A program made the position numbers and the translations under genes. The notes below the pieces were generated by a model that searched no databases, was not told where the DNA came from, and saw only the letters and a program-made list of their open reading frames with translations. 26,294 nucleotides of DNA from a virus, in the IMG/VR virus record IMGVR_UViG_3300028423_001086, positions 1 to 26,294 of that record; one strand, 5' to 3'. Shown here piece by piece: positions 1 to 19,746 of the stretch (positions are counted from its first letter, which is position 1; each line of letters starts with the position of its first letter).

Positions 1-384
1 GGTGCAATACCTGAAAGCAGAGCTTACAGAGGAATATCCACAGTAAATCGAGACGCTGCGAGCTGGACACTGTATGATATTGCTCTTATAAAACAGGATA
101 TAACTAACCACTTTCATATTCGACAGGGTGAAAAGCTCAGTGACCCTAGCTTTGGCACAATAATCTGGGACGTGTTGTTCGAACCTCTCACAGAAAGGTT
201 ACGAAGTCTCATACTGAAAAATGTCACACGAATAATCAATTATGATCCTAGAGTAGAAGTCAATGACATTGTGGTTGACAGCTATGACAACGGTATACAG
301 ATAGAAGTTACTCTTACCTATTTGACTTATAACATCTCAGAAACCATGCGATTGAGCTTTGACAGAGATGCGGGATTGATCTAG
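1..384 (+). CDS. 25: Baseplate wedge protein, T4 gp25-like (5' end cut off)
   Basis: The frame is open from base 1 to the TAG at 382-384, giving 127 residues. T4 gp25 is 132 aa, so probably only a few N-terminal residues lie outside the window. gp25 is a small core subunit of the baseplate wedge, related to TssE of type VI secretion systems, and helps start sheath assembly. Visible family signs are the segment DPSFGTIIWDVLFEPLTERL (codons 49-68) and a later YDPR (codons 81-84), which sits where the family has its EPR motif. An internal GTG at 172 could act as a start in isolation, but the conserved sequence continues upstream of it, so it is not the true start. The gp6-like gene that follows supports the call, since gp25 and gp6 are wedge partners. 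Confidence 0.88.
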   Translation, partial: GAIPESRAYRGISTVNRDAASWTLYDIALIKQDITNHFHIRQGEKLSDPSFGTIIWDVLFEPLTERLRSLILKNVTRIINYDPRVEVNDIVVDSYDNGIQIEVTLTYLTYNISETMRLSFDRDAGLI

Positions 385-3400: not shown

Positions 3401-3916
3401 AAGTCTCTTTCGGACGAAATCATATATCATCCTGTTAAGTACAAGGTGCTATTTGGAAACAAGGCAGATCCTGAACTGCAAGCTCAGTTCAAAATTGTGA
3501 AAAATCCCGATCTTGTAATCAACGAAAACGAACTCAAGAGCCGAACAATAGACGCAATAAACAGATTTTTTGCGTTGGAAAACTGGGAGTTTGGTGATAG
3601 ATTCGAAATTTTTATAAGCGCTGCAACTGTTGACAACATTGATATAATAGACGAAATTACAGAAGCAAGATTACGAGCTGAAGGTAAAGTTATTACAAGA
3701 AGTGTGGAAGAAAATACAGGTATTACTAGCAGTTCTATGATTACTCAAACCAGTGGCGTTTATAATACTACTTCCACATCGATACCATCTAACACTACTA
3801 CCTCATCGCCTGCTCAAACCACTGTGAGTGACAATAACACCGGTAGTACCTACACACCGCCTAGCACAAGCGGCTCAACAGGCGGTTCAACAAGCGGCGG
3901 AGGATATAGCTACTAA
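437..3916 (+). CDS. 6: Baseplate wedge protein, T4 gp6-like, extended with a Ser/Thr/Gly tail
   Basis: This is a gp6-type baseplate wedge protein (baseplate J-like family). gp6 dimers form the ring around the baseplate hub and join neighbouring wedges. The N-terminal part (residues 1-120) has the typical LRRTMIEYLR and LALIDMIAFLGQNIAFRVDL segments. The middle has DGTFGNIPSGPFRVYYR (345-361) and TYYTQNRLVTAEDY (from 423). The C-terminal domain ends with SRTIDAINRFFALENWEFG (1035-1053). At 1159 aa it is much longer than T4 gp6 (660 aa). The last 64 residues (1096-1159) are low complexity, about half Ser or Thr, ending in Gly-rich repeats, which suggests a flexible tail. The start at 437 has AAGGA 8 nt upstream. 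The TAA at 3914-3916 shares one base with the next ATG (TAATG). Confidence 0.92.
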   Translation: MSSTDRQNRLLAAEDWKKVYQSFRNADFKSYDFDNLRRTMIEYLRNNYPEDFNDYIESSEYLALIDMIAFLGQNIAFRVDLNARENYIELAERRESVLRLARLVSYNPKRNLAANGLLKIESVSTTETVQDSNGVNLRNQTIVWNDPANPNWNEHFEKVINAALPVNGKIGNPVKQSNISGVPTQKYKLNAGNTGIPVYGYSKTVDGRSLDFEIVSTDITDDLIQEEAPFPGNNLGFIFRDDGQGPASSNTGYFVHFRQGTLNFGDFTVDNPSANQTIAVDSVNTNNTDVWLYNVDDLGEEQELWTRVDSIEGNNVIYNSLVKTERNIYSVLTRVEDRINLVFADGTFGNIPSGPFRVYYRTSANRPSNITPSDMRNVSVSIPYISRNGKSENITFTFALQYVVDNASRSESNESIRTNAPATYYTQNRLVTAEDYQIGPLAVSQEIVKSKSVNRTSSGISRNFDLIDATGKYSSTNIFSADGILYKEFINEAKTFTFENLTDVQGEILNTVEPTVQGKRLRDFYLDRYPRVIVEDLGNVWLQNTADTNQSTGYFENSVDIAAKLSSFTQNNMRFVREGALLKFRAPEGLHFLNGELVSSEPDFRGGTRTVWSKVIRIIDDGTEVQEDGTGPVVLSDQIPSDAQLTEIITALPNSLTSEVTAQATDQIFAGRTFGLRYDREIDEWRIVTENNLDVQSEFSTGKTGDVTGQQLDASWLLLFETDGVRYNLTLRGLRYVFESSEEVRFYFDSANTIFDAETGRVIKDKITVLDINTRPDSTEPFNRGFDWEITNEFRDLAGYVNSKKVEVSFFDSDADGIVDNPEQFLGLVDDANLSQDNIERKLVFLERQNSQDGIVDFEYVTQDEIDVRVFLRKGQEGALSQYPDGQLFYFLREDIFERLNLQTASLRLDPNYRAEIGRDSLRFQYVHAADDNSRIDPSASNIIDTYLLTRGYDRQFRLWLDGTRNDKPLPPSSDSLYVSYGENLNKIKSLSDEIIYHPVKYKVLFGNKADPELQAQFKIVKNPDLVINENELKSRTIDAINRFFALENWEFGDRFEIFISAATVDNIDIIDEITEARLRAEGKVITRSVEENTGITSSSMITQTSGVYNTTSTSIPSNTTTSSPAQTTVSDNNTGSTYTPPSTSGSTGGSTSGGGYSY
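3899..3904 (+). promoter_or_regulatory. Ribosome binding site GGAGGA of the giant gene, inside gp6
   Basis: GGAGGA lies 11 nt before the ATG at 3916, rather far for a Shine-Dalgarno site. It is formed by the glycine codons at the end of the gp6 tail. Together with the TAATG stop-start overlap it suggests that translation of the giant gene is coupled to gp6. No late-promoter octamer is visible at this junction. Confidence 0.55.
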
Positions 3917-6900
3917 TGGCTTATAATGATGATCAACAGGAATATCCTGTTCCTGGAGGTGACAACACTAGACGAACCAGTGCGCAGCACCTTCCCAGAT
4001 ATTTTAGAACCGAAGCCAATAAGAAGTTTCTCTCTGCTACCCTCGACCAACTTCTAAAACCAGGCACTGCGGAAAAAATAAACGGCTTTGTAGGTAGAAA
4101 ATATGCCAAGGCTTTCGATCAAAATGACAACTATGTAGAAGAAACTCTCAAACAGAGATCAGACTATCAGTTTGAACCAGTCTCTGTGATAAAAGATGAT
4201 CTTAGAAATGTAGAGTTCTATGCTGACTATAACGATTACATCAATCAAATTCAGCACCTTGGAGGAAACACTGACAATCACTCTATTCTAAACAGACAAG
4301 AGTATTACAGCTGGAATCCTCACATTGACTGGGACAAATTTGTAAACTTTAGAGAATACTATTGGCTACCAAACGGCCCACAACCTGTTCCTGTAGCAGG
4401 AGAATCAGTTGAAGTAGAAACGGAATACTCAGTTACAAACGAAGACAACCTTGACAATAGAGGATTTGTGTTTACTCCCGATGGGTTTACTCAAAATCCT
4501 GAACTCGTTTTGTATAGGGGCATTACCTATCGCTTTGATATAGATTCTCCCGAACTTCCTATCAGCTTTAGATCAAATCGGATAATAGCTCAGCCTTGGT
4601 CTGCAAATACATTTTATAGATTAGGTTCTACAGCTCTGTATGAAGGCCAAATCTACACAGTAAATCGACAGCATCGTTCGTCTGATGATTTTCAAGAAGA
4701 CAGAGAGTTCTGGGATCTCAACACAGAATTCAATCTTACAAACGAAGTATCCGAACAGAATGTATCTCAGGGCACAGTTGAAATAGTTCTCAACCAACAG
4801 ACACCTGATTTCATATACTATGTTTCTGATCTAGATGCAAACGCAGGCGGCTTAATTCGAGTATATGACATTGAAGAAGCTGCTTTTGTAGAAGTAGAAC
4901 GAGAAATACTAGGTAAGAAAAAGTATCGTTCCGGTAATGGAGTTGATCTTTCCAACGGAATGAAAATCTATTTTCAAGGTACTACTAATCCTGATTTTTA
5001 CGAAACAGGCAATTTTTATGTTGAGGGTGTAGGAGATAGAATTAAGCTTATTCCTGAACAAGAACTAACGCTTGCCAGTGCATTTGTTGAAAACGAACAA
5101 ATTGCGTTCGACACAGAAGGTTTTGATTCAATACCTTTTTCCACTGCTATAGGCTTTCCGAGAGAAAAAGACTATGTTACAATTAACAGATCCTCAGACA
5201 ACGGCAACCTATGGTCAAAATACAATCGTTGGTTTCATAGAGAAATAATCGAAAAAGCTGCTGAAATAAACGGCACTGCGCTTGACTTAGATCAATCTGC
5301 TAGGGCAAAGCGACCTATTATTGAATTTGAACCAAATCTCAAATTGATAAACTTTGGAACAGAAGCAAAGCGTGCAGTTGATCTGGTAGATGATTTTACC
5401 CGAGATGTGTTTTCAACGATAGAAGGATCTGAAGGATACAACGTTGATGGCATAGACGTTTCCGAAGGCATGCGTCTATTGTTCTTGGCTGATCCTGATC
5501 AAAGAGTTAACGGCAAGATATTTGAAGTAAAATTCGTCAACTTCAAAGGCAACAGACAGATTTCTCTCATACAGCCACAGGATTCAGAGCCTCTAGAAAA
5601 CCAAACCATATTGTGCGGTCAGGGCAATGACTACAGCGGCGAAATTTTCTACTATGACGGCAGTCGGTGGCAGCCAGGACAAAACAAAGTATCAACAAAC
5701 CAGCAGCCGCTTTTTGAACTGTACAACTGCGACGAAGACAGTCTAGCAGATCCTGAAATATACGAATCCACTACTTTTGAAGGAACTGCGATATTCTCAT
5801 ACAGAGAAAACGAAAATGCACCACCGGATAGAGAACTAGGGATTCCAATTTCCTACAGAAGCATCGCAAACGTGGGCGATATAGAATTCGAATTTGATCT
5901 TCTCACAGACGGCGTTACTTATTGTCCAGGAGGCGACGTTACAATTCAGGAAAAAACCGGCATAGGATACTTAAGAAACTATGTGTCGAGAACAGACTAT
6001 AGAGTAGAAAACGGATGGCAGAAAGCAGAGCAGTTAAGTGACCAACCTGTTATTAGGCAATACGTAGCAGATACAGGAGACAGAGAATTTGAAATTGATG
6101 TGTTCCAAAATTCTGCGAATATCAATGACCTCAAATATCGAGTATATCTGAATAATGACATACAGGTAGAAGGCAGTGCTTACACAACTGACACTACACG
6201 TTCCGGCAATTTGAAAATTGTGTTCAACCGTGATCTATTTTCTGGTGACATTGTGCTTATTAAAGCAAGATCTCGATCACCAAAAAACGATAATGGATTC
6301 TATGAAATACCAATCAACCTTGAAAGAAATCCTCTCAACGGAGATCTCGACACAATAACTCTAGGCGAAATCAATGATCATGTGCAGTCTATTATTGAGT
6401 CTGTGGAAGATTTCCAAGGGGAATATCCAGGAAGATCCAATCTAAGAGACCAAGGCAGAGTCACGCAGTATGGTAGACGAATTGTAAAACACTCTGTACC
6501 TTACAATCTTCCTCTCTATCACTTGGTAGACGAAAGTGCCAATGTTATAAAATCAATTGACTATGCAGCTCGAGAATACACAAAGTTCAAGAGAAGATTC
6601 ATTCAGATTGCTAACGATTTGTCTTTTGCAGGAGACACACGAGATCATGTAGAAGCAATTCTGCGAGAACAGTTTAGAGATAATTCTCAGTCAGATCCGT
6701 TCTTTGCGAGCGACATGATTCCTTTGGGCGGCGCGAAGGTATCTCGATTTGAAGTGACCAGTGATCAGCAGGTATTTTATGCTCTAAATCAACCTTTCAC
6801 ACTAGAATATCTCAGCGACAACGCAGTACTGGTGTATCTAAATGATGTTCAGCTTGTGGCAGACAGAGATTACAAATTTAATTCAGAAGGCTTTATTGAA

Positions 6901-9900
6901 GTAACAGCAGCACTCGCACGCGGCGACGTTCTTGAAGTGTATGAATATGAAAACACAAACGGTTCATTTGTGCCACCAACCCCGACTAAACTGGGAATAT
7001 ATCCTCGATTTACACCTACAAAGTATGTAGATGATACCTATCTTGAACCCAGAGAAGTGATAAGAGGTCATGACGGTTCTATTATCCTAGCGTATGGTGA
7101 TTTCAGAGACGATCTTCTTTTAGACATCGAAAAGAGAATCTACAACAACATCAAAGTCAAATATGACACAGAACTGTTTGACATATTTGACTATGTGCCC
7201 AGCGTTGGCAGAACAACAGATCTCACAAGAACTGATATAGACAGCGCAATCCTGCCTGACTTTATTCGCTATCTGCGACTGATAGACGAAGATTACACAG
7301 AAAACAAATACTTCGACAGAGAAAACAGTTTTACCTACAACTATGCGGGCAGCAGAAACTTTCAAGGCGAAACTGTGCGAGGATGGTGGCGAGCAATCTA
7401 TCAAAATGCCTACGACACAGATGCCCCTCACACAAGACCTTGGGAGATGCTGGGATTTGTAGATAAACCAGACTGGTGGGAAGAACAGTATGGACCTGCA
7501 CCTTATACCAATAACAATCTCATATTGTGGGAAGACCTTGAACAGGGAGTGGTAAGACAGCCTGGACAGCGATATGAAATCTATGACAAGTTTCGCAGAC
7601 CAGAACTAAGCTCTCACATACCGGTAGACGATCAAGGCAATCTACTATCACCTCTTGAATCTGGATACATAAAATTCCTCAATTTTCAAACTACAAGCAA
7701 CAAATTCGAATACGGAGATTGGTCCCCTGTTGAAACTGCGTGGAGGAAAAATTCTGATTATCCGTTCAAACTGATAAAGTCTCTCATACTTAATCAGCCA
7801 AACCGAGTATTTGCCACAGCATTTGATAGGTCAAGGCAGATTAGAGGATTGGTAGGTGACATTATATATCAAGACCCCAATATTCAGCTTAGAACAGACA
7901 ATATTGTGTTTCCTGATGAAGTTGATTCAGGTGTGTTTGCGTCAGGACTGATCAATTGGGTAAAAGAGTATGTACAAAATGTAGAATTATTGACCTACAA
8001 CAGATACCAAGAAAAGATCACCACAATCAACAATCAAATGGGATTCAAGATTGGCGGATTTACTTCCAAAGAAAAATTCAATCTTGTGCTTGACAGCGGA
8101 ACTCCTACAAACGAAGGCAATGTGTTTGTACCACCTGAAAACTATCAGATATTTGTTAATAAAACTACGCCTATAAGACAGCTATACTACAGTGGCGTGA
8201 TTGTAGAAAAGAGAGCTCGTGGATTCTTAATCAGAGGCTACAACACAGAACAGCCGTTTTTCTTTTATCATCCTGCTGTACCACGGAATTCTCTCACTCC
8301 TACAACCGTGGGAGGGATTTCGCAACCCACAGTGACCTGGACTCCCGAAAAAACACTAGTAAAAGGCACTGTGGTTGTGAGAGGCGGAATAGTGTACAGA
8401 GTAACTGAAACTCATACCACAACCAATCAGTTCGAACAAGACAAATTTGCTCAACTGCCTAATATTCCTGTTGTAGGCGGAAGAAGCGCAATATTCAATA
8501 CAAGATTCGAAATCGAAGAGAAAATGCTGCCCTATAACACTATTCTTGACACTGTGCAGGAGGTGGTTGACTTTATTTTAGGCTACAGCAACTGGTTACA
8601 GAGACAGGGATTTAGATTTGATTACTTTGACAGAGAAGAGGGCAAGGTAGACGACTGGAACACCGCAGCTAAGGAATTTTTATTCTGGACCACACAAAAC
8701 TGGGCAGAAGGTTCTGTTCTCAGTGTCAGTCCCGGCGCAGAAAAATTCTCCTTTGTGAGCGAAACAGAAGCCATAGATGACGTCTATGACACATTCTATG
8801 GTTACAGTCTTGTAAAAGTTGACGGTAAAAAGCTCCAGCCGGAGTTGGTATCTGTTACGAGAGAAGCACCGTCAGAATTTCAAATTCGCACAACAGACAC
8901 TGCAGACGGTATCTACGGGCTTAGAATTTCCACAGTGCAAAAAGAACACGCTGTGTTATTAGATGACAGAACCGTGTTCAATGACATAATTTTTGACAAG
9001 CAGCCTGGCTTTAGGCAGGAGAGAATCAAGGTTGTGGGTTATAGATCAGGAGAATGGAATGGTTCATTCAACATTCCTGGCTTTACCTATGACAATGCGA
9101 CTGTAACAGAATGGCAGGCCTGGCGTGATTATGCCATAGGCGATCTAGTAAGATTCAAAGAATTCTTCTATGCTGCAAGAACAAGAATAGCAGGCGCAGC
9201 TACCTTTGACACTCAAAACTGGGTACCGCTGGAAAGCAAGCCTGAACCAGAACTGATTCCCAACTGGGACTACAAATCAAATCAGTTCGCAGATTTCTAC
9301 GATCTCGATTCGGACAATTTTGACGAAGAACAACAGAAATTTGCACAGCATCTTATAGGCTATCAAAATAGAACCTATCTTGCAAACATCATAAACGATG
9401 ATGTAAGCCAGTACAAATTCTACCAGGGATTTATTCAGGACAAAGGTTCAAGAAATGCGCTTGATAAACTGTTTGATGTTCTAAGCGGAACAAACAGAGA
9501 AAGCCTAGACTTCTTTGAAGAGTGGGCAGTAAAAGCAGGCAGCTACGGATCAACTAAAGGTTTTGAAGAAGTTGAATTCAGGTTAGATGAACGCAAGTTC
9601 AAAACCAAACCCCAGCCGTTTGAATTGGTAGATAGATTGCCGCCTGCTCCGATTGGTTTGGTGTATAGAATAGAACCTTCAGAAGTCTATCAGAAACCTG
9701 AAAATTACGATCATGCACCATTCCCTGAAAAATCTGTATTTGATACGTTTACAAAAACCAGCGGTTATGTAAATCCGGATGATATCAATTTCGAAGTCGC
9801 AACCTATGATGATATACTAGACTTAGATGTGACTAAAATATTCGACGGCGATGTTATATGGGTAGGCAATGTAAACAACGACTGGAATGTGTATACCGCT

Positions 9901-12900
9901 CTTAGTATAAAACAGGATCTAAAACAGATTGACACCGAAGACAATCTTGCTGTGACATTTTCAAAGACTGTTAAAAATCTCCTAGCAGGAGAAATTGTTG
10001 GCATTTTCAATGCTGACACAGCGAACGGTTTTTATAGAATTGATACTGTTAACAAAAACACAGTTGAGCTTGAAAATCCCAATGATGTTCAAATTGACGA
10101 TCCAATAACAGATGCTGTTTTTGTAATTTTCACACCAAGCAGATTTAAATCTATAGACGATGCCAACAATCAAATTGAAAGAATAAACGCAGGTCTAGAC
10201 AGAATATGGATAGACGATTTTGCAGGAACAAATTGGAGAGTGATTGACAAGGCGAGTCCTGTAAAACAACATCAAACAGTGCAAGAACGCACAGATCTTT
10301 CTGACGAATATGGCGCAGCAATTGACACAAACTACAATAACACAGTTGTAGTTCTAGGAGCGCCGAGAGAAGCAAATGGTGCGGTTTATATCTACATAAG
10401 AAACGGTGAAAATAATGACCTAAAGCTTGCTCAAAAAATAGAAGCCAACGCAGATCTAGCCAGAGCATATCCCGTTTTTGATGAAGATTCAACAGCCTAT
10501 GAAACTGGCGATATTGTAAAAAGATTCAACAAGCACTATCAAGCCAAACGTGAAATCACGCCCAGTGGTGAATTCGATCCTGTAGACTGGGAAGAAGTCG
10601 AACCTTATGATATACAACAGTTTGGCACAAGTGTAGCAGTTGATAGATCTGGTGACTATATTGCAATTGGAGCGCCAGGCGCCTCAGATGTTAAAACTTT
10701 CTTTCAGGGAGATTACGAAGAAACACGAAACTATGACGCAGGCAGTATTGTAAGATTTCAAGACAGACTATGGAGTGCAGCGACGCCTATCACAGGCGCT
10801 GTACAGTCTATAGAATTTGGCAGCTTTGAGTCAGTACCTCAGATCCTGCAAGATCTTGGTCTTGTTTCGGAATCTTCAGAAAAAATCTATACTATTCTAG
10901 CTGGTAATTATCCGTTTACAGATGTAACTACTGACCACTTTATCTTAAAAGCGCCTCGAGACATGTATGAAGGTTCGGATATAGGAGACACTGTTGACCT
11001 ACAGTGGAACAAAACAAGCTATGCATACCAAGACCAGGATTCTCTCAGCGAAACAGCACCTTTTGCAGGGACTATAGGTCTGTTTGACAAAAACTTTCTT
11101 TCGCAACAGTTTGTTATTGCTGAAAAAATTGATTCCATATTGTATGTAGACGCTTCGACTAATATACCCGATATTGGACAGATAATAGAAACGCCGTCAG
11201 GATTCGGCGAAGTTGCCTATACATACAGCGAAGTAGCATCGGTAACAATTTATGTTAAAAACCAAAACGGCACATTTGGTTTATCTAGTTCTCTATTTAC
11301 AGAAATTGGTGAATTTGTAGGAGAATACGAAACACAAGCACCGGTCGCTCAAACACCAGGAGCGGATGATTACTGGGGCGGATACTGGCGCATCAATTTG
11401 AATGAAACTTATCAAGTCAGTGAAACCAATCGCGACGAAGGCAGAGGATTAGTTTACAGAGATCTTCTCACGGACAGCTTCCCGCATGGTTTTTACTATA
11501 ATATACTTGACTATGCCTCGGATGATTTTTCCAGTTTTGACACTCGTTTCAGCGAAGTTACTACGTTATCTTATAGAGGATTACCTGGCCCTCTAGGAGA
11601 AGTTGCTGATTTTGACAGTAGGTTATACGTGTTAAGAGCACCTGCGGATCTTACAGGAAATGTAGGAGAGCCCGTAGATCCAAACGGATCAGAAATTACA
11701 GCAGGAGACGAAATAGAAATTTTCTATAATACGCTGCCTAATTTTGAAACCGGTGACTTTTTAGATCCTCAGACAATAGGTTTAACTCGAGAAGAAATAA
11801 ATCGCCGCCACACAGTTTTTGACGTATGGGACGGTTATATTGATGTTACTCTCACAATTGCGGATCCTCTCTCAGACAGATTCAGGGAGCCTAGACAGGG
11901 CTTGACTGTAAGACCAGTTGATTTTCCTAATGCAGGCACGGCGGTTATTGCTTTTTATCAAAAATTTGATACAGATTCTATAAGATTATATCTCAAAGAC
12001 CTCGAAGGGAATTGGCCAGCAGGCGCAGAATTCGGCGAAAATCGAGAAATTGAATGGCTTGAGGAAGAAGGAGAAACAGACCCACCGTATAATGCAACCC
12101 AAACCTTTGGCCAAATACAGAGCAGAAGCATAGGTTATGCGCCAGACAGCATTGGCAGAATGATTGTCTTAGAAGCGAATACTGTGATTCCTTTGACAGA
12201 ACAGTCAAGAATACTTGATGCAGAATATTGGTTATACAGAGAAGAAACTGTGCAAGGCATACCTCGAGAGCCAAATGTGCCGTCTGTTGACAACAATGAT
12301 TGGCTTGAAACAAACAGAATATCCACAAGCACCGCAGGAACAGCATCTAATCTTTCGCAAGAAGGCCTATTTGGTATATATGAAAGAAATGGTGTGTCAA
12401 ATTGGTCAGAAATTGACACATTCGTTGTGCCTGACCGGAAACAGGAAGCAAGACTAGGAAGTGACTTACAATTTTCCCAAATAAATGAATTAACAAGATT
12501 GTTTGTGGAATCTCAAGGCAACAGCACGGTAGGCAACAAAGGTCGGATTTATATCATTAAAAATGGTGTCGAGGACGAAAACGATTACAGCTGGGAACTG
12601 GGTTCGAACACACAGTACAAAGGAGAATATTCTGCATCAAGAGAATATGCAGAAAATGATGTTGTATTCTATGAAGGAGATTTGTATCAAGCAGTCACAA
12701 ATATAGTTGCAGGAGGTTTTGACACTAGCGATTGGGAATTGTTAGATATTTCTGAAACACCGTTTGATTATCTTGGATTTATCCCCAATGATACTGGCCT
12801 AGTTATAGACTCTGACGCTGTGCTAGAACAAATAGGACTAGAAACATTTTCTCAGAACTTTGACGCTTCTGAAAACGGCGAAGTTATAGTAGTGTCAAGC

Positions 12901-15900
12901 CGTTTTGATTCAAAGACTGAAAATACCGTTGTTGTTTACAGAAATATCAGAGGCTTCTATGAAAAATCACAAACAATAGAAGCACCAAACACAAACTCTG
13001 GATTCGGTGAAAGCATCTCAGTTTCCGACGATGGTAAGAAAATCGCAGTAGGAGTGCCCTACGATGACACAAACCTCCTCGATCAAGGCGCGGTCTACAT
13101 CTATCAAGAAATACAAACACAGTTTGAGCTAGTTCAAATTCTATATAGCACCGATCAGTCAAGAGCAGAATTGTTTGGCCTCAAAGTAGACTGGGATTCT
13201 GATACACTGGCTGTTGCTGCAAAAAATTCTGCTTCAAGTATTGAAACACAGTTCGACTCTGGTAAAACAGTGTTTGATTCAGAGTTTACAGATTTTGTAG
13301 ACGAGAGAGAAAATTCTGGCACTGTGCTTCTATTCAAAGACTACGGCGATGCTCTGTTATACAGTCAAACGATAGATTTTGTCGAAGATTCTGTGCAGTA
13401 TTTTGGCAGACAGCTTCTAGTAAACGAAAATCATGTATACGTTCCTCTTCCTAGTTATTCTGAGTCCGGTGCTACGGGCGTTCTTGTAGATTACCGCCGC
13501 GATCAAAGTCAAGACTTCTGGCAGACTGTGAGACAGATAAAACCCACAGTGGATATTTCAAAAATCAAACAGGTTAAACTGTATGATATAAAGGAGAATC
13601 AGCTGATAGAACAGCTGGATTTTGTTGATCCTCTCCAAGGCAAGATACCAGGCATTGCAGAAAGGGAAATCTCATTCAAAACCTATTATGACCCTGCTAC
13701 ATACACAGCAGGATCTGGAGTCAAGATAAACATCACTAACAGCTGGAACCATAATCAGGTTGGCAAAGTATGGTGGGATCTTTCAAATGCAAAATTTAGA
13801 AATCCCTATCAAGGCAGCACTGTGTTCGCAGCTAACAACTGGAATTCTGTGTTCTCTCAAGAACGAAACTCTATTGATGTGTACGAATGGGTAGAATCAG
13901 ACGTTCTACCTAGCAGATGGGATGAAATAAGTGGCACAGAAGAAGGCTTTTCTCGAGGAATATCGGGCTCGTCAAAATATGGCAACGATGGATACGTAGA
14001 AAAACAGCTATTTGATTCTGCTTCAAAAACATTTTCTACAAAATATTATTTCTGGGTCAAGGGCAAACTTACAAGACCTGCTATTTCTTCTAGACGATTA
14101 AATGTGCAAGACATAGCAGATCTAATTCAAGACCCCAAAGCGGAAGAATACAGATTTGTTCAGCTTATTTCTCCCACAGAATTCGCGCTTGTAAACTGCG
14201 ACGATCTTATCAGCAGTGACGATGTTGCACTTTCCATACAATACTGGACAATTGACGATCAGTCTATCAACGTGCATAACGAATATCAGATACTGACGGA
14301 AGGCCTAGACTCAAGCCGACCAAACGAAAAGGTAGAACAGAAGTGGTTTGACAGCTTAGTGGGCTATGATACAAGAAGAAGAGCCGTTCCCGCGCTTGAA
14401 TTGTCAGAAAAAGAAAAATATGGTGTACTGGATAATCCGAGACAGGGTTGGTTTGTTAATCGAGTAGAAGCTCTTAAACAGACTGTGGAAAGAATCAATC
14501 GAGTATTAAAAGAAAATCTCATAGCTGATAACAGAGACATATCAAGACTGACAGAATTCGAACCAGAACCTCTCATACAAAGCAGACTGTATGACACTGT
14601 AGTAGAAACAGTGACAGATCTAGAGTTTATTGGTGTTTCTAGAGCTAGACCTGCTAGATTACAGCCAGAAATTCAAAATGGTCGAATAGTAGATGTGGAA
14701 ATAGTCGATTCAGGCAGAGGATATCAAAATCCTCCAATAGTACAAATTGCAGGTACGGGAACAGGTGCAGAACTCCTTGCAGAAATGAACAGCCAAGGCC
14801 AAGTAGAATCGATAACAGTTCGAAACCCAGGTGAATATTATTCTGAGAACACTATTGTATCTGTGAGAAACTTTGCTGCACTGGTACAGAACGATGAAGA
14901 GATTGGAGGAAGATGGGCCGTCTATGAAAGGAATCCAGATTCTAACGAATGGCAGAGAACCGTCAGCCAAGGTTATAATGTTAATTTATATTGGGATTAT
15001 GAGGACTGGTATGACGAAGGATACAGCAGTGCAACAGAAATTGACACAGTAGTTTCCAGCTCATACGAGTTATCCGCAATTCAAGACGAAATAGGTGATA
15101 GAGTAAAAATCGAAAACGTGGGCACAGGTGGTTGGTTATTACTGGAAAAAATAGACAATCAATCTAACGTTGACTTTACTGTAAACTACAAAACTATAGG
15201 CAGACAAAACGGCACAATACAGCTATCCGACTTATTGTATGACATTGCTGCGAATCTTGTGAGCTACGACGTGGGAGGTTTTGATTCAAAATTCTATGAC
15301 AGCTTACCTACAATAGAAACAAGAATTATTCTGGAAACTGTGAGAGACGATATATTCACAGACGACCTGGCTATTGAATACAACAGATTGTTCTTTGCGA
15401 ATATAAGGTATGTTCTAGCAGAGCAGAAATACGTTGATTGGGTATTCAAAACTTCCTTTGTAAAGGCACAGCACAATGTAGGCAAGCTAGAACAAAAACT
15501 TACGTTCCGTAATGATAACTTGCCTAATTATCAAGAGTACGTAGAAGAAGTTAAACCTTATAAAACAAAGTTGAGAGAATATCTGTCCAGTTATGAAGGA
15601 CAAGACAACAGCAGATCTGTAGTCACTGATTTTGACCTACCACCAAGATACGTCGAAACAGAAAGTCGTATACGCCCCTTCCAAACCAGACTAGCAGACT
15701 CTGTTATAGATATTAGAGATGCAGTTGAACTTGAATACCCTAATCGTTTTTGGCTCGAAAATACAGGATTTGCAGTACAAGATATTCTTATTGCAGATGC
15801 GGGAATAGGATACACATCAGCACCTATTATAGAAATCGTAGGCGGCGCGGGCCGCGGAGCATCTGCTATTGCGAGTATAGGTAGAGACGGAATTTTGACT

Positions 15901-18900
15901 TCGATTACAGTCACTAACACAGGCTCAGGTTACATATCTCCTCCCGAAATAAGAATAAACGGATCAATACAAGAAGGAGGTCAATCAGGAAGAGCTGTCG
16001 CGGTTCTGGGAGGCTCTCCTGTGCGTTCAATTACAACAGGAATTAAATTTGATAGAGTAAGCGGTGACTTCGAATTTACTAGCTTGCTTACAGAAGAATC
16101 TTTTGTAGGCAGCGGCAATCAAAGAAACTTCGATCTAAAATGGCCAATGGATTTAAGAACACCTCTTGTGTCTGTAATTGTAGACGGTACAGAAGTACTG
16201 GGAGGACAATACTCTTATCAAAATAATAGAGACGTGTCCAAAGGTTACGAACGATTCCTTGGAGAAATCATATTTAGAGAAGCTCCTGCAGAAGGCGCAC
16301 CTATCACAGTGAGATACTCTAAGAACGTTGATATTCTAAATGCACAAGACAGGATAAATCTTTCCTATGAAGCAGGAGAAGGTGCTCTAGGAAAATCACT
16401 GGGCCAGCTAATGGACGGCATCGACTACGGCGGCGTAGAAGTAAAAAGTTTTGGATTTGCATCTACCTCAGGCTGGGATGCACAACCTTGGTTCTCGCAA
16501 GCCTGGGACGTATTCGATACGAGTTTCGAAGATGAAATCGTAAAGCTGGATGGCAGTACAGTTGCAATAGAATTGTCTAAACCTCTAGAAGATAATGTGT
16601 TATACAACATTTATAGAATTCTCAGAGATAATAACGGCAGACTTATTGATAATACAAGATTAGATGATCCAGCATATCCGATAACCTATGATCTTGAAGT
16701 AACAAATGTTAACGCAAATGCTTACAGGATCGAAGGATTAGACAGAAATGGTATAGTTTCTGGCAATAATCCCGAGCTTACTTTTAGAGTAGGCGACACT
16801 GTAAGATTTACTATCAATGCAGCTGGACATCCGTTTTATATTAAAGATGTGGCAGGTACAACGGATTCAAACGCAATTGATGTTGATAATAACGGAACTG
16901 AAAACGGATTTATTACATGGACAATAGATGTAGAACAAACATTTTATTATAATTGCGGAATCCATAGCAGTATGGCCGGTGAAATAGCAATTAATCAACA
17001 AGGTTCTATAACTAACTTGGATGCTGTAACGGCGCCTGTGGTAGGTGACGGCTTTACTGATATCTTGTATCTGGACGAATTGAATATAGAGACCAGCTTT
17101 GTAGATGAAAGTGTAGCAAGTGTGACAATAATTGTGCGCAAGGTTACAAGTGATGGATCTTTCATTCCGGATCCAGATAGTTATGATACGCAAATTGCAG
17201 GCGGCGATCTGGCTTATGAAACGGCACAGGGCATAAAAGCTGAAGACATTAACATAGACGGCGACGGATTTGTTACCGCAAAAAGAGCAAAAGGCCCAGA
17301 AGAAATAGTGCCAGGACAGGTGCTTGATACAGTTGATATTCAGGTTTATGAAAGACCAGCCGCTGGCGGCAGCCGAATAGAATCTAGAAATTACATAGGC
17401 AACGGAAGCACATTTGTGTATGATATAGGAGTGACTCCGGTAAAATTTGAAAATGTGTTTGTAAAAATAAACAACACATTTGAAGACAATTTCGACATTG
17501 ACTATGAAACAGACAGAGTGATTCTACACACAGTCCCTCAAGAAGGTGACAGAATTAACATTCTTAACCTAGGTAATGCAGGGCTAGAAATACTGGAAAT
17601 AGCAGATTTTATAGGCGACGGTGAAACTAGAGAGTTTTTACTGAATGCAAGTTATGAACAAAACCTTGACAGTTTTGTAACTGTGAACGGCACGACTACT
17701 GATGTGTCTATTGTAGAATCAGACGATACCTATGAAAATGCTGGCAGAGTGCTAGTAACATTTGAAGAACCCCCGGCACAAGATTCTAATATCAATATTC
17801 TTGTTACACTAGGCGGAGATAATTTTGTAAATTACAGTCAAGTGTCTATTGATAGATTTACAGCAGATGGAACGACTACACAGTTTACACTAGATAACAA
17901 TATCTTTGCACAACCGCCTGCACTTGCTAACACCGTAGTAAGAGTGAACAACATAGTATTAAACGCTGGATACTCAGAAGTTTTTGAAGTCACCGCAGCC
18001 AGACGGTATCAGATAAATCTCACACAGGTACCTATCGGAAGCGCAAATTCCAACGAAATAGAAGTATATCTTAATGGAATACAACTGCGATTCCTGCAAG
18101 AATGGAGATTTACTGGTTCTGCTCCTGGACAAGGAGATGAAAGTGTTGGTAGTGTAGTAGAACTGGAAAGAGGTATAGGCAAACCGGGCGATGAACTTAA
18201 AATTTATGTTATAGGCGATTCAGAATATCGTTTTGGATTCTTTGACGCTGCCGGAGAGTTTGTACCACAGAGAGGAGAAGATTCTACATTTCCTGTATTA
18301 AATCTTGACTCTGCTTACTCACCAGGCGACGAGATAGTGGTTTACTCATTTAGTAATCATGACGGCCAGGGTATTGAAAGACAGAGTGTTGATGTGATAG
18401 AAAAAACAGAAACCATACCGGGCACTGAAAGATATTATGAATATAGGCAGCTTACTAGAGGTGTAATTGAATTAAGAAAAACTGCGATAGATGCACAATA
18501 TGTATGGGTTGTGCAAAACGGTGATTTGCTGATGCCTAGCGTAGATTACAGTGTAACCGAAGATGGTAAATTTGTTACTCTTGTGACTCCTCCAAAGGAA
18601 AACGACGAAATTGAAGTAATACACTTTGCAAATGATGTTACAAGAGACACATTTGGCTGGAGACAGTTCAAAGATATGTTGAATCGTGTTCATTATAAGC
18701 GTCTCAATGAAACAGTGCAATTAGCACAAGATTTGAATTGGTACGACAAAACTATAGAGATTCAAGACAGTTCTTTGTTGCCAGAGCCTGCATTCAATTC
18801 ACCAAATCCTGGCGTTGTATTCATAGAAGGTGAAAGAATTGAATATTTTGTAAAAGATGGGAATACACTAAAACAGATCAGAAGAGGCACTCTAGGAACT

Positions 18901-19746
18901 GCTGTGAAAGATGCATATCTAGCAGGTACGTCTGTAATGGAACAGGGTGTCAGCAATGACTTGCCTTACAGGGACGAAGAGCAGCTAGTTACAGTTACAG
19001 CCAGCGGCTATTCAGAAGGTTTAAGTGAATACGAAAACAGCTTTGGAGTCTCAATAGACTCTGTGTCGTATGATTTTAACAATAATACTGCATATCCTCT
19101 AGGAGGTCAGGTTGCCACTGTTACAGGAACAGGACTTAGATCAAATGCTACTGCATTTGTTGGCGAAACAGAATGTGAAACTTCTTACATAGATGAGAAC
19201 ACAATTCAATTTATTACACCGGCTCTACCTGTAGGATCATATGATCTGATCATAGTAAATCCCGCCATAGAAGAGCCAGAAGAACAACCACGAACCAGTG
19301 CTGTAAAACAGGATGCTATAGTTTATGTACAGGTACTCTTGCCATATTCACCTTCTCCTGAAACTGAGATTGTGGATAATCCTGCAGCAGACGGTGATTG
19401 GTATAGAGCACCGTTCGAAGAAGGCGGCATTCCTCAAGATTATTGGCAGGCATTGGATATAGAAGTTTTTGTAGCAGGTAAGCGTTTGCGAAAAGCACCC
19501 CAGAGTGTGTATGCATTTGAAGCACAAGACTCTCCTGAAGGTGACATAGAAATACAAGCCGAGTTCGCAGTTAACAAAGACATTGGCGCTTATGTAAGAT
19601 TGTCAGCGCCACCACCTAAAGGTGCTGAGATTGTTATCATAAGAAAAACTCTCACAGAGTGGACAGACCCGGGCACCAGGCTTGCTCAGTCTAACACCGA
19701 AGTTGCTAAATTTTTAAGAGACGGTAGCACAGAACTGCCACGATAA
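3916..19746 (+). CDS. Giant multidomain baseplate/tail protein (5276 aa) in the T4 gene 7 position
   Basis: One unbroken frame of 5276 codons, roughly 0.58 MDa at 110 Da per residue. Its place directly after gp6 matches T4 gene 7 (wedge protein, 1032 aa). From memory, marine T4-like phages carry large proteins here that share blocks seen in this one: LPRYFRT (26-32), HIDWDKFVNFREYYWLPNGP (136-155), GWWRAIY (1156-1162), KPDWWEEQYGPAP (1184-1196), DDVSQYKFYQGFIQDKG (1828-1844), and a helical-looking block around 3840-3940. Set among these are inserted modules listed separately: two cupredoxin-like domains, six carbohydrate-binding-like modules, a probable FG-GAP propeller, GxGY repeats, T7-fibre-like beta modules and an IPT/TIG domain. 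The last 40 residues hold IVIIRKTLTEW and a final ELPR. No signal peptide or membrane segment is seen. A wedge or adhesin role is inferred from position and domains; orthology to gp7 is not shown. Confidence 0.85.
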   Translation: MAYNDDQQEYPVPGGDNTRRTSAQHLPRYFRTEANKKFLSATLDQLLKPGTAEKINGFVGRKYAKAFDQNDNYVEETLKQRSDYQFEPVSVIKDDLRNVEFYADYNDYINQIQHLGGNTDNHSILNRQEYYSWNPHIDWDKFVNFREYYWLPNGPQPVPVAGESVEVETEYSVTNEDNLDNRGFVFTPDGFTQNPELVLYRGITYRFDIDSPELPISFRSNRIIAQPWSANTFYRLGSTALYEGQIYTVNRQHRSSDDFQEDREFWDLNTEFNLTNEVSEQNVSQGTVEIVLNQQTPDFIYYVSDLDANAGGLIRVYDIEEAAFVEVEREILGKKKYRSGNGVDLSNGMKIYFQGTTNPDFYETGNFYVEGVGDRIKLIPEQELTLASAFVENEQIAFDTEGFDSIPFSTAIGFPREKDYVTINRSSDNGNLWSKYNRWFHREIIEKAAEINGTALDLDQSARAKRPIIEFEPNLKLINFGTEAKRAVDLVDDFTRDVFSTIEGSEGYNVDGIDVSEGMRLLFLADPDQRVNGKIFEVKFVNFKGNRQISLIQPQDSEPLENQTILCGQGNDYSGEIFYYDGSRWQPGQNKVSTNQQPLFELYNCDEDSLADPEIYESTTFEGTAIFSYRENENAPPDRELGIPISYRSIANVGDIEFEFDLLTDGVTYCPGGDVTIQEKTGIGYLRNYVSRTDYRVENGWQKAEQLSDQPVIRQYVADTGDREFEIDVFQNSANINDLKYRVYLNNDIQVEGSAYTTDTTRSGNLKIVFNRDLFSGDIVLIKARSRSPKNDNGFYEIPINLERNPLNGDLDTITLGEINDHVQSIIESVEDFQGEYPGRSNLRDQGRVTQYGRRIVKHSVPYNLPLYHLVDESANVIKSIDYAAREYTKFKRRFIQIANDLSFAGDTRDHVEAILREQFRDNSQSDPFFASDMIPLGGAKVSRFEVTSDQQVFYALNQPFTLEYLSDNAVLVYLNDVQLVADRDYKFNSEGFIEVTAALARGDVLEVYEYENTNGSFVPPTPTKLGIYPRFTPTKYVDDTYLEPREVIRGHDGSIILAYGDFRDDLLLDIEKRIYNNIKVKYDTELFDIFDYVPSVGRTTDLTRTDIDSAILPDFIRYLRLIDEDYTENKYFDRENSFTYNYAGSRNFQGETVRGWWRAIYQNAYDTDAPHTRPWEMLGFVDKPDWWEEQYGPAPYTNNNLILWEDLEQGVVRQPGQRYEIYDKFRRPELSSHIPVDDQGNLLSPLESGYIKFLNFQTTSNKFEYGDWSPVETAWRKNSDYPFKLIKSLILNQPNRVFATAFDRSRQIRGLVGDIIYQDPNIQLRTDNIVFPDEVDSGVFASGLINWVKEYVQNVELLTYNRYQEKITTINNQMGFKIGGFTSKEKFNLVLDSGTPTNEGNVFVPPENYQIFVNKTTPIRQLYYSGVIVEKRARGFLIRGYNTEQPFFFYHPAVPRNSLTPTTVGGISQPTVTWTPEKTLVKGTVVVRGGIVYRVTETHTTTNQFEQDKFAQLPNIPVVGGRSAIFNTRFEIEEKMLPYNTILDTVQEVVDFILGYSNWLQRQGFRFDYFDREEGKVDDWNTAAKEFLFWTTQNWAEGSVLSVSPGAEKFSFVSETEAIDDVYDTFYGYSLVKVDGKKLQPELVSVTREAPSEFQIRTTDTADGIYGLRISTVQKEHAVLLDDRTVFNDIIFDKQPGFRQERIKVVGYRSGEWNGSFNIPGFTYDNATVTEWQAWRDYAIGDLVRFKEFFYAARTRIAGAATFDTQNWVPLESKPEPELIPNWDYKSNQFADFYDLDSDNFDEEQQKFAQHLIGYQNRTYLANIINDDVSQYKFYQGFIQDKGSRNALDKLFDVLSGTNRESLDFFEEWAVKAGSYGSTKGFEEVEFRLDERKFKTKPQPFELVDRLPPAPIGLVYRIEPSEVYQKPENYDHAPFPEKSVFDTFTKTSGYVNPDDINFEVATYDDILDLDVTKIFDGDVIWVGNVNNDWNVYTALSIKQDLKQIDTEDNLAVTFSKTVKNLLAGEIVGIFNADTANGFYRIDTVNKNTVELENPNDVQIDDPITDAVFVIFTPSRFKSIDDANNQIERINAGLDRIWIDDFAGTNWRVIDKASPVKQHQTVQERTDLSDEYGAAIDTNYNNTVVVLGAPREANGAVYIYIRNGENNDLKLAQKIEANADLARAYPVFDEDSTAYETGDIVKRFNKHYQAKREITPSGEFDPVDWEEVEPYDIQQFGTSVAVDRSGDYIAIGAPGASDVKTFFQGDYEETRNYDAGSIVRFQDRLWSAATPITGAVQSIEFGSFESVPQILQDLGLVSESSEKIYTILAGNYPFTDVTTDHFILKAPRDMYEGSDIGDTVDLQWNKTSYAYQDQDSLSETAPFAGTIGLFDKNFLSQQFVIAEKIDSILYVDASTNIPDIGQIIETPSGFGEVAYTYSEVASVTIYVKNQNGTFGLSSSLFTEIGEFVGEYETQAPVAQTPGADDYWGGYWRINLNETYQVSETNRDEGRGLVYRDLLTDSFPHGFYYNILDYASDDFSSFDTRFSEVTTLSYRGLPGPLGEVADFDSRLYVLRAPADLTGNVGEPVDPNGSEITAGDEIEIFYNTLPNFETGDFLDPQTIGLTREEINRRHTVFDVWDGYIDVTLTIADPLSDRFREPRQGLTVRPVDFPNAGTAVIAFYQKFDTDSIRLYLKDLEGNWPAGAEFGENREIEWLEEEGETDPPYNATQTFGQIQSRSIGYAPDSIGRMIVLEANTVIPLTEQSRILDAEYWLYREETVQGIPREPNVPSVDNNDWLETNRISTSTAGTASNLSQEGLFGIYERNGVSNWSEIDTFVVPDRKQEARLGSDLQFSQINELTRLFVESQGNSTVGNKGRIYIIKNGVEDENDYSWELGSNTQYKGEYSASREYAENDVVFYEGDLYQAVTNIVAGGFDTSDWELLDISETPFDYLGFIPNDTGLVIDSDAVLEQIGLETFSQNFDASENGEVIVVSSRFDSKTENTVVVYRNIRGFYEKSQTIEAPNTNSGFGESISVSDDGKKIAVGVPYDDTNLLDQGAVYIYQEIQTQFELVQILYSTDQSRAELFGLKVDWDSDTLAVAAKNSASSIETQFDSGKTVFDSEFTDFVDERENSGTVLLFKDYGDALLYSQTIDFVEDSVQYFGRQLLVNENHVYVPLPSYSESGATGVLVDYRRDQSQDFWQTVRQIKPTVDISKIKQVKLYDIKENQLIEQLDFVDPLQGKIPGIAEREISFKTYYDPATYTAGSGVKINITNSWNHNQVGKVWWDLSNAKFRNPYQGSTVFAANNWNSVFSQERNSIDVYEWVESDVLPSRWDEISGTEEGFSRGISGSSKYGNDGYVEKQLFDSASKTFSTKYYFWVKGKLTRPAISSRRLNVQDIADLIQDPKAEEYRFVQLISPTEFALVNCDDLISSDDVALSIQYWTIDDQSINVHNEYQILTEGLDSSRPNEKVEQKWFDSLVGYDTRRRAVPALELSEKEKYGVLDNPRQGWFVNRVEALKQTVERINRVLKENLIADNRDISRLTEFEPEPLIQSRLYDTVVETVTDLEFIGVSRARPARLQPEIQNGRIVDVEIVDSGRGYQNPPIVQIAGTGTGAELLAEMNSQGQVESITVRNPGEYYSENTIVSVRNFAALVQNDEEIGGRWAVYERNPDSNEWQRTVSQGYNVNLYWDYEDWYDEGYSSATEIDTVVSSSYELSAIQDEIGDRVKIENVGTGGWLLLEKIDNQSNVDFTVNYKTIGRQNGTIQLSDLLYDIAANLVSYDVGGFDSKFYDSLPTIETRIILETVRDDIFTDDLAIEYNRLFFANIRYVLAEQKYVDWVFKTSFVKAQHNVGKLEQKLTFRNDNLPNYQEYVEEVKPYKTKLREYLSSYEGQDNSRSVVTDFDLPPRYVETESRIRPFQTRLADSVIDIRDAVELEYPNRFWLENTGFAVQDILIADAGIGYTSAPIIEIVGGAGRGASAIASIGRDGILTSITVTNTGSGYISPPEIRINGSIQEGGQSGRAVAVLGGSPVRSITTGIKFDRVSGDFEFTSLLTEESFVGSGNQRNFDLKWPMDLRTPLVSVIVDGTEVLGGQYSYQNNRDVSKGYERFLGEIIFREAPAEGAPITVRYSKNVDILNAQDRINLSYEAGEGALGKSLGQLMDGIDYGGVEVKSFGFASTSGWDAQPWFSQAWDVFDTSFEDEIVKLDGSTVAIELSKPLEDNVLYNIYRILRDNNGRLIDNTRLDDPAYPITYDLEVTNVNANAYRIEGLDRNGIVSGNNPELTFRVGDTVRFTINAAGHPFYIKDVAGTTDSNAIDVDNNGTENGFITWTIDVEQTFYYNCGIHSSMAGEIAINQQGSITNLDAVTAPVVGDGFTDILYLDELNIETSFVDESVASVTIIVRKVTSDGSFIPDPDSYDTQIAGGDLAYETAQGIKAEDINIDGDGFVTAKRAKGPEEIVPGQVLDTVDIQVYERPAAGGSRIESRNYIGNGSTFVYDIGVTPVKFENVFVKINNTFEDNFDIDYETDRVILHTVPQEGDRINILNLGNAGLEILEIADFIGDGETREFLLNASYEQNLDSFVTVNGTTTDVSIVESDDTYENAGRVLVTFEEPPAQDSNINILVTLGGDNFVNYSQVSIDRFTADGTTTQFTLDNNIFAQPPALANTVVRVNNIVLNAGYSEVFEVTAARRYQINLTQVPIGSANSNEIEVYLNGIQLRFLQEWRFTGSAPGQGDESVGSVVELERGIGKPGDELKIYVIGDSEYRFGFFDAAGEFVPQRGEDSTFPVLNLDSAYSPGDEIVVYSFSNHDGQGIERQSVDVIEKTETIPGTERYYEYRQLTRGVIELRKTAIDAQYVWVVQNGDLLMPSVDYSVTEDGKFVTLVTPPKENDEIEVIHFANDVTRDTFGWRQFKDMLNRVHYKRLNETVQLAQDLNWYDKTIEIQDSSLLPEPAFNSPNPGVVFIEGERIEYFVKDGNTLKQIRRGTLGTAVKDAYLAGTSVMEQGVSNDLPYRDEEQLVTVTASGYSEGLSEYENSFGVSIDSVSYDFNNNTAYPLGGQVATVTGTGLRSNATAFVGETECETSYIDENTIQFITPALPVGSYDLIIVNPAIEEPEEQPRTSAVKQDAIVYVQVLLPYSPSPETEIVDNPAADGDWYRAPFEEGGIPQDYWQALDIEVFVAGKRLRKAPQSVYAFEAQDSPEGDIEIQAEFAVNKDIGAYVRLSAPPPKGAEIVIIRKTLTEWTDPGTRLAQSNTEVAKFLRDGSTELPR
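4468..4860 (+). other. Degenerate cupredoxin-like domain split by a carbohydrate-binding-like insert
   Basis: Residues 185-315 of the giant protein. The first half (E196-F218) and the last half (Y301-I314) align without gaps to the intact cupredoxin-like domain at 4287-4358. Shared residues include ELxxxxGxTxRFxI and, in the second half, YY, G and I. All four copper-ligand positions differ: L214 for His, S304 for Cys, D307 for His and A310 for Met. Between the halves sits residues 227-268, which look like a carbohydrate-binding module. The copper site is therefore lost and only the fold is likely kept. Confidence 0.6.
4594..4719 (+). other. Carbohydrate-binding-like module 1 (CBM5/12, ChtBD3-type)
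   Basis: Residues 227-268. The pattern is W, then Y..G....YEGQIYTV, then an acidic turn and FWDL, which is the usual layout of this short module (W...Y..G..V.Y....Y......W). Five further copies occur in the same protein at about residues 1474-1516, 1733-1772, 2186-2228, 2265-2300 and 2901-2944. These modules bind polysaccharide in chitinases and are common in phage tail proteins; binding here is inferred. Confidence 0.55.
8335..8463 (+). other. Carbohydrate-binding-like module 2
   Basis: Residues 1474-1516. W1475 is followed by VKGTVVVRGGIVYRVTETH and a later acidic stretch ending AQL. It is the weakest of the six copies because the second conserved Trp is absent. It follows a conserved FFFYHPAVPR segment. 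Confidence 0.4.
9112..9231 (+). other. Carbohydrate-binding-like module 3
   Basis: Residues 1733-1772. It contains WRDYAIGDLVRFKEFFYAA and then FDTQNWVPL, a clear example of the W..Y..GD.V.F...FY.A...F...W..L pattern. It stands just before the conserved scaffold block with DDVSQYKFYQGFIQDKG (1828-1844). Confidence 0.6.
10303..13542 (+). other. Probable seven-bladed FG-GAP beta-propeller with inserted modules
   Basis: Residues 2130-3209. FG-GAP-type strands such as FGTSVAVDRSGDYIAIGAPG (2236-2255) and FGESISVSDDGKKIAVGVP (3030-3048) alternate with G.v.iY strands. Seven of the latter can be counted: GAVYIYIRNG (2155), LFGIYERNG (2818), GRIYIIKNG (2875), NTVVVYRN (3003), GAVYIYQE (3058), GTVLLFKD (3135) and TGVLVDYRRD (3187). 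Seven blades is the number in the integrin-alpha head. Carbohydrate-binding-like modules lie at 2186-2228, 2265-2300 and 2901-2944, and residues 2257-2815 interrupt blade two. The fold is inferred from motif spacing only. Confidence 0.6.
14668..14871 (+). other. GxGY repeat pair, first block
   Basis: Residues 3585-3652. DSGRGYQNPPIVQIAG is followed about 37 residues later by a weaker copy with PGEYYSENTIVSV. The repeat unit is V...I...G.GY..PP.V.I.G followed by a Gly/Ala-rich turn. Similar repeats are common in phage and bacterial surface proteins. Function is unknown. Confidence 0.6.
15772..16029 (+). other. GxGY repeat pair, second block
   Basis: Residues 3953-4038. DAGIGYTSAPIIEIVGG and TNTGSGYISPPEIRING are two clean copies of the repeat unit also seen at residues 3585-3652. 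About 300 residues of a conserved, partly helical region separate the two blocks, so one array may have been split or the unit may have been copied twice. Confidence 0.65.
16081..18645 (+). other. Array of T7-fibre-like beta modules around the cupredoxin domain
   Basis: Residues 4056-4910. The repeated plan is FxL, then VxVxVnG, a dYxx turn, vxFxxaPxxGdxIxVxY. Clear copies begin near residues 4063 (GSGNQRNFDL, then VSVIVDGTEVL), 4493 (YIGNGSTFVYDI), 4583 (FIGDGETREFLL), 4650 (FTADGTTTQFTL) and 4855 (VWVVQNGDLLMPSVDY). Earlier single copies lie near 742 and 972. Such modules resemble the T7 gp17 N-terminal region and often link or extend fibres; the role here is inferred. The intact cupredoxin-like domain sits between the first and second copies. 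Confidence 0.5.
16699..16995 (+). other. Cupredoxin-like (plastocyanin-type) domain with a full copper ligand set
   Basis: Residues 4262-4360 of the giant protein. PELTFRVGDTVRFTI leads into GHPFYIKD, and the domain closes with FYYNCGIHSSMAGEIAI. This gives the type-1 copper set H4305, C4347, H4350 and M4353. The His-to-Cys distance (42 residues) is close to that of plastocyanin (47). The Met spacing is shorter (C-x2-H-x2-M rather than C-x2-H-x4-M). The sequence supports a cupredoxin fold strongly. Whether copper is bound in the virion, and why, is not known. Confidence 0.75.
19054..19266 (+). other. IPT/TIG immunoglobulin-like domain near the C-terminus
   Basis: Residues 5047-5117. GGQVATVTGTGLRSNATAFV, then IQFITPALPVGSYDLIIVNP, is the usual IPT/TIG order (G..V.i.G.gf......v..g...., then i.f..P..p.G.ydv.V.n). 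These domains are common in adhesins and phage tail tips. The last 160 residues follow, ending with a conserved FLRDGSTELP segment. Confidence 0.7.

Follow-up and report, generated by a model that had tools for sequence, protein, structure and literature searches.

Can a phage tail carry a type-1 copper site? The question is raised by a 26,294-base uncultured virus record (the whole stretch analysed here, hereafter the window), in which an earlier note had recognized a plastocyanin-like domain, with four candidate copper ligands, inside a virion protein. We examined the genes around this protein, the fold and ligands of the domain, its relatives in phages and bacteria, and the site at which it is inserted.

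Genomic setting of the giant protein

The window consists of a plus-strand run of contractile-tail genes (Table 1). Two baseplate wedge genes precede the giant protein, for the second of which we infer the gp6 label from gene order; the genes after it encode a 204-aa protein, a fibre protein with a collar domain and additional tail proteins. In one of these, a 492-aa tail protein at 24319–25797, the C-terminal region resembles the Peptidase_G2 autoproteolytic domain, with a match (E 1.8e-4) that does not reach the cut-off. The flanking wedge and collar genes and the membership in phrog_10938 identify the giant as a predicted tail/virion protein, a placement by synteny and PHROG families and not by proteomics. 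Among named phages, those closest to it over the N-terminal half are jumbo phages, which share 27–30% identity (Agrobacterium Atu_ph07, Sinorhizobium Phosso, Pseudomonas PA5oct and MIJ3, and Salicola SCTP-2), and further relatives of the protein occur in IMG/VR contigs; a megablast search of phage records returned nothing near. Gel-band proteomics of the distant relative MIJ3 named only four proteins (PMC6892783).

Table 1. Features of the window discussed in the text, with the evidence for each
Feature	Position	Strand	Evidence
gp25-like baseplate wedge subunit, 5′ end cut	1..384	+	PHROGs phrog_261, E 3.2e-19
gp6-like baseplate wedge subunit, 1159 aa	437..3916	+	PHROGs phrog_10646, E 7.4e-279
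Giant protein, 5276 aa, phrog_10938 'virion structural protein'	3916..19746	+	ORF, PHROGs
Ligandless cupredoxin-like fold, residues 172–319	4429..4872	+	Profile iteration; S-x2-D-x2-A replaces C-x2-H-x2-M
CBM5/12 carbohydrate-binding piece, residues 228–257	4597..4686	+	Pfam PF02839, E 2.9e-13, protein half
Approximate inserted stretch, residues ~4255–4366, absent from orthologues	16678..17013	+	Junction alignments, approximate ends
Cupredoxin domain, residues 4262–4360 of the giant	16699..16995	+	Translation, AlphaFold, Foldseek PDB, phmmer amicyanin
His4305, first predicted ligand (HPF), CAT	16828..16830	+	Conservation rank 1, H in 98% of weighted rows
Cys4347, second predicted ligand, TGC	16954..16956	+	Conservation rank 3, C in 94%
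His4350, third predicted ligand, CAT	16963..16965	+	Conservation rank 4, H in 94%
Met4353, predicted axial ligand, ATG	16972..16974	+	Conservation rank 2, M in 96%
Tail fibre/collar protein, 674 aa	20385..22409	+	Pfam PF07484 Collar, E 2.7e-16; PHROGs tail families

Fold and predicted ligands of the domain

Residues 4262–4360 read as previously reported, and the four ligand codons were verified on the DNA. H4305, C4347, H4350 and M4353 follow the order of type-1 ligands, His...Cys-x(2-4)-His-x(2-4)-Met, with the last three in the final loop. Across the six reading frames of the window, the C-x2-H-x2-M motif was found a single time. Cysteine is scarce in the giant, which has six over its whole length of 5276 residues. 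The domain contains C4347 alone, and no other Cys lies between residues 3428 and 5087, ruling out an internal disulfide as the reason for conservation of this residue.

AlphaFold, given an alignment of 25 phage domains, modelled the domain with nine strands and a mean pLDDT of 94.3. This model and its PDB matches agree with the Greek-key beta-sandwich of the cupredoxin superfamily (about 7–8 strands). The leading Foldseek PDB matches were rusticyanin, plastocyanin and amicyanin (E 1.4e-4, probability 1.00), with a Nitrosopumilus purple cupredoxin and nitrite reductase also in the leading group, all of it made up of blue copper proteins or of copper enzymes that contain cupredoxin domains. At the sequence level, amicyanin was the best single-sequence PDB match (phmmer, E 0.003), and the best NCBIfam match was the amicyanin model TIGR02657 with E 0.0017, scoring 18.7 bits against a cut-off of 110.2. 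A total of 246 phage records contained a match to the domain at a permissive E limit of 10, with values among the matches listed mostly between 1e-20 and 1e-7. Together with the two amicyanin matches, these indicate that the likeness is not due to chance. Searched alone, the window domain gave no match at the gathering cut-off of PF00127 (Copper-bind, the plastocyanin/azurin family), and matched neither that family nor PF25489 (At5g54830-like); its sole Pfam match, to TrkA_C, was dismissed as chance. Among the 25 aligned phage members, 7 matched PF00127 (best E 7.9e-8) and 10 matched PF25489 (best E 2.2e-6). The amicyanin and PF00127 matches make the relation to known cupredoxins significant, though weak for the window domain by itself.

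The domain thus almost certainly has a cupredoxin fold. Predicted fold, sequence matches and ligand conservation all support the assignment to the cupredoxins and the complete, ordered ligand set. Because the amicyanin and Copper-bind cut-offs were missed, we name the domain a cupredoxin, and not an amicyanin or a plastocyanin.

Amicyanin shares both the fold and the identical C-x2-H-x2-M spacing, in an ungapped phmmer alignment, so that the loop, earlier described as shortened, is not abnormal. The two proteins differ in setting, amicyanin being a soluble periplasmic carrier and the window domain an insert in a giant phage protein, and in the residue after the first ligand, which is Pro in the window domain. 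In small blue copper proteins this His is followed by Asn, and the predicted site could therefore differ from the classical one. Phage-encoded plastocyanin, of which the S-WAM1 protein was among the fold matches, is likewise a cupredoxin from phage. It is an auxiliary metabolic gene product of cyanophages, a separate small soluble protein serving host photosynthesis and not a tail domain.

Conservation of the ligands and distribution of the family

Conservation was measured as relative entropy over 126 distinct related domains from phage tail proteins and bacteria (effective number 84). The columns of H4305, M4353, C4347 and H4350 ranked first, second, third and fourth of all columns, and the complete set (HCHM) was present in 113 of the 126 domains. 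Both the main viral scan and the scan of bacteria used the first-His motif as their sole anchor, which inflates the rank of that ligand and no other; C, H and M were free to vary. In these scans, HCHM was found in 53 of 55 complete viral domains and in all 17 bacterial ones. At 17 loci drawn from a tblastn ranking of annotated phage records, the domains that could be read all keep the four ligands; among them are several from cyanomyoviruses, one from the podovirus P-SCSP2 (L264) and one from DSL-LC01 (L269), a phage of Actinomycetia.

The departures from HCHM are themselves patterned. Rows that lack the Cys also lack the second His (NSNA, QSDF, HSDA, HADM and, in L006, AATM), with HGHM (L020) as the lone exception, and HCDM (L036) is the sole row in which just the second His is lost. 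Of the apparent half-domains, with only the first His, some belong to degenerate repeats or to frames that are broken, whereas in L119, L105, L106 and the S-CAM1 locus an inserted domain interrupts the cupredoxin. In L119, an insert of ~90 aa between His and Cys splits the domain, and the C/H/M loop was recovered past it, the second half still ending in YYYQCGNHADM. Such conservation, together with the joint loss of Cys and His, is what selection on a metal site would be expected to produce. The proposal that the window copy might be a structural fossil is not supported, since its ligands occupy the four most conserved positions of the family.

In L105, L106 and S-CAM1 (L268), another inserted domain separates the first His from the place where the Cys loop is expected; annotations of related phage proteins read subtilisin-like or tail fibre. 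L006 (IMGVR_UViG_2910013374) has four cupredoxin-like copies in two adjacent frames, only one of them with all four ligands.

Four PHROGs match the domain (phrog_677, phrog_15006, phrog_9158 and phrog_27200; E 7.8e-19 to 4.6e-15). In a Foldseek search of predicted viral structures, the best matches were cyanophage tail-fibre and baseplate-connector proteins. These contain the same domain (TM up to 0.94) with the same four ligands, situated in other host proteins such as PSSM2_298 of P-SSM2 and gp9 of S-ShM2; no copper domain is named in the annotations of the cyanophage proteins seen. Bacterial occurrences, at 38–53% identity, are found in marine Bacteroidetes, Myxococcota and some proteobacterial MAG contigs. 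Four of them are open frames of 130–159 aa with a hydrophobic N-terminus and a single HCHM domain, and from their sequences look exported, as expected of exported cupredoxins. A tree of the 126 domains gives neither the origin of the window copy, which lies unplaced in an open fork with both Bacteroidetes and phage rows, nor the direction of transfer. A further cupredoxin, in a 'Gammaproteobacteria' MAG (L057), lies beside phage baseplate-like frames, and this contig is probably viral and binned as bacterial.

Insertion, ligandless copies and the possible role of a metal

Orthologues of the giant (30–56% identical) lack this domain, their sequence being continuous across the site. About 20 distinct orthologues were examined there and all were empty; one example reads RVDDINYGTVNPVTNPNAICQSITGDG where the window reads RLDDPAYPITY, then the domain, then NLDAVTAPVVGDG. 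The earlier note would have taken ligands not conserved in close homologues as a refutation, and here the answer has two parts: the giant's orthologues do not have the domain, and the ligands are kept nearly wherever homologous domains occur. On these alignments, the domain is evidently a mobile accessory module, dispensable and set in a loop of the giant. Different inserts occupy neighbouring loops of other orthologues, indicating that the surrounding module (window residues 4150–4460) is an insertion hot-spot. In one orthologue (L239 in G020), the next loop holds a domain of about 300 aa containing FEHIFHTIHAFGIPGAV, and orthologues L246–L252 have a ~75-aa insert after FEDE in the same module. 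The orthologue in G016 (L252) was considered as a carrier of a relative of the domain at the site and rejected, its extra length being a different insert.

A second cupredoxin-like fold, at residues 172–319, lies near the N-terminus of the same protein. A match at this position was found in 30 of 30 orthologue records tested, and the copies that were read have S-x2-D-x2-A or a close variant, although a few keep HP at the first position. The model of this segment has a pLDDT of 82.5, and its fold matches, mostly laccases, nitrite reductases and plastocyanins, are weak (best E 2.3e-3, none below 1e-3). It is a fossil-like, ligandless copy in the same giant. The CBM5/12 piece within it is present in the window and near relatives, and several orthologues have the fold uninterrupted, making it a domain inserted within a domain. 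The presence of cupredoxin folds with and without ligands in one protein indicates that the fold serves phage tails both with and without a metal site.

Ligandless cupredoxin folds are stable and common in these phages, as would suit a metal-free adhesion domain, in which H, C, H and M owe their retention to packing or to a recent origin from a cellular gene whose copy has not yet decayed. We consider this unlikely: the ligands are the top four columns over strongly diverged domains, most phage members being 22–50% identical to the window domain, and the ligandless copies keep the fold with S, D and A, so that packing does not need C, H and M.

The explanation we prefer, with a probability of roughly 0.6, is a mobile cupredoxin inserted in a giant baseplate-cluster protein of a marine contractile-tailed phage, whose complete His-Cys-His-Met type-1 metal site is under purifying selection across the domain family, and which serves as a metal-stabilised attachment or spacer module of the tail. 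The parts of this explanation differ in strength. From the sequence evidence, the domain probably binds a metal in the virion, and we lean, somewhat less firmly, towards copper as that metal; that its role is structural or adhesive rather than redox we put at even odds. The giant would fold and assemble in the host cytoplasm, and because that compartment is poor in copper, the preformed site would load copper once the cell has lysed or when the tail reaches the host periplasm; zinc or some other thiophilic metal might take its place. The bound metal would lock the ligand loop and rigidify the exposed beta-sandwich, which could then help the tail to attach or act as a spacer. Since the giant also uses this fold with no metal site, the scaffold would be structural, and the metal site an added and conserved feature. 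Several points count against a metal-stabilised module: the window domain lies below the curated cut-offs of the blue-copper families, the Pro after His4305 could make the site differ from a classical one, the persistence of ligandless cupredoxin folds in the same protein and family suggests that tails do not need metal, and a cytoplasmic protein would have little access to copper until lysis.

A further rival is a purely structural site for zinc or another metal, which would be loaded while the particle assembles in the cytoplasm. Type-1 sites accept zinc, and the compartment of virion assembly offers more of it than of copper. The Met, a soft ligand suiting copper over zinc, is nevertheless kept in nearly all weighted rows, and we regard cytoplasmic loading with zinc or another metal as improbable.

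Functional iron in phage tail proteins has reportedly been proposed as the Ferrojan horse hypothesis, which resembles the present case in placing metal in tails but concerns iron and other folds, with no cupredoxin. This iron-based analogue, the complete type-1 ligand set and the existence of exported-looking single-domain bacterial relatives at 40–49% identity would fit a copper-loaded tail domain that exchanges electrons with the copper or electron-transfer proteins of the host envelope, or mimics a partner of these, and so helps to trigger or target infection. Orthologues of the giant manage without the domain, however, and of the readings considered for the window domain we hold this one least probable. 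A broader version is also doubtful, namely that functional type-1 sites loaded with copper are widespread on the tails of marine phages, in exchangeable cupredoxin modules that exported proteins of bacteria share, the metal being used in infection for docking on copper or electron-transfer proteins of the host or for redox sensing, as a copper counterpart of the Ferrojan horse. What the family conservation suggests is that many phage tails carry a predicted metal site of this kind.

No paper describing a tail or virion cupredoxin was found in the open-access literature searched, which omits most subscription journals. A cryo-EM report on cyanophage P-SCSP1u, in which the distal fibres were not resolved, was checked for copper terms and mentions no cupredoxin (PMC10575957). 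The fold and the site are already known; that open-access literature appears to contain no description of such a site, under selection, in a family of tail modules of phages.

A loaded site would mean a tail metalloprotein in hundreds of marine phages, which would link the chemistry of infection to ocean copper and allow the use of metal by virions to be tested directly. Should the metal be only structural, the family is still a widespread tail module, apparently without a name, in which members with a selected metal site have ligandless siblings; its recognition would improve the annotation of misnamed tail proteins now called 'hypothetical', 'subtilisin-like' or 'tail spike'.

Two relatives (G032 and G033) have further proteins with this fold elsewhere. 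Each encodes a separate protein of 242–245 aa (L299 and L301) with an intact THPIRF...YYYCVNHSGM cupredoxin domain, adjoining a protein with repeats resembling CBM5/12. Both records also carry a ligandless cupredoxin-like fibre protein (L300 and L302).
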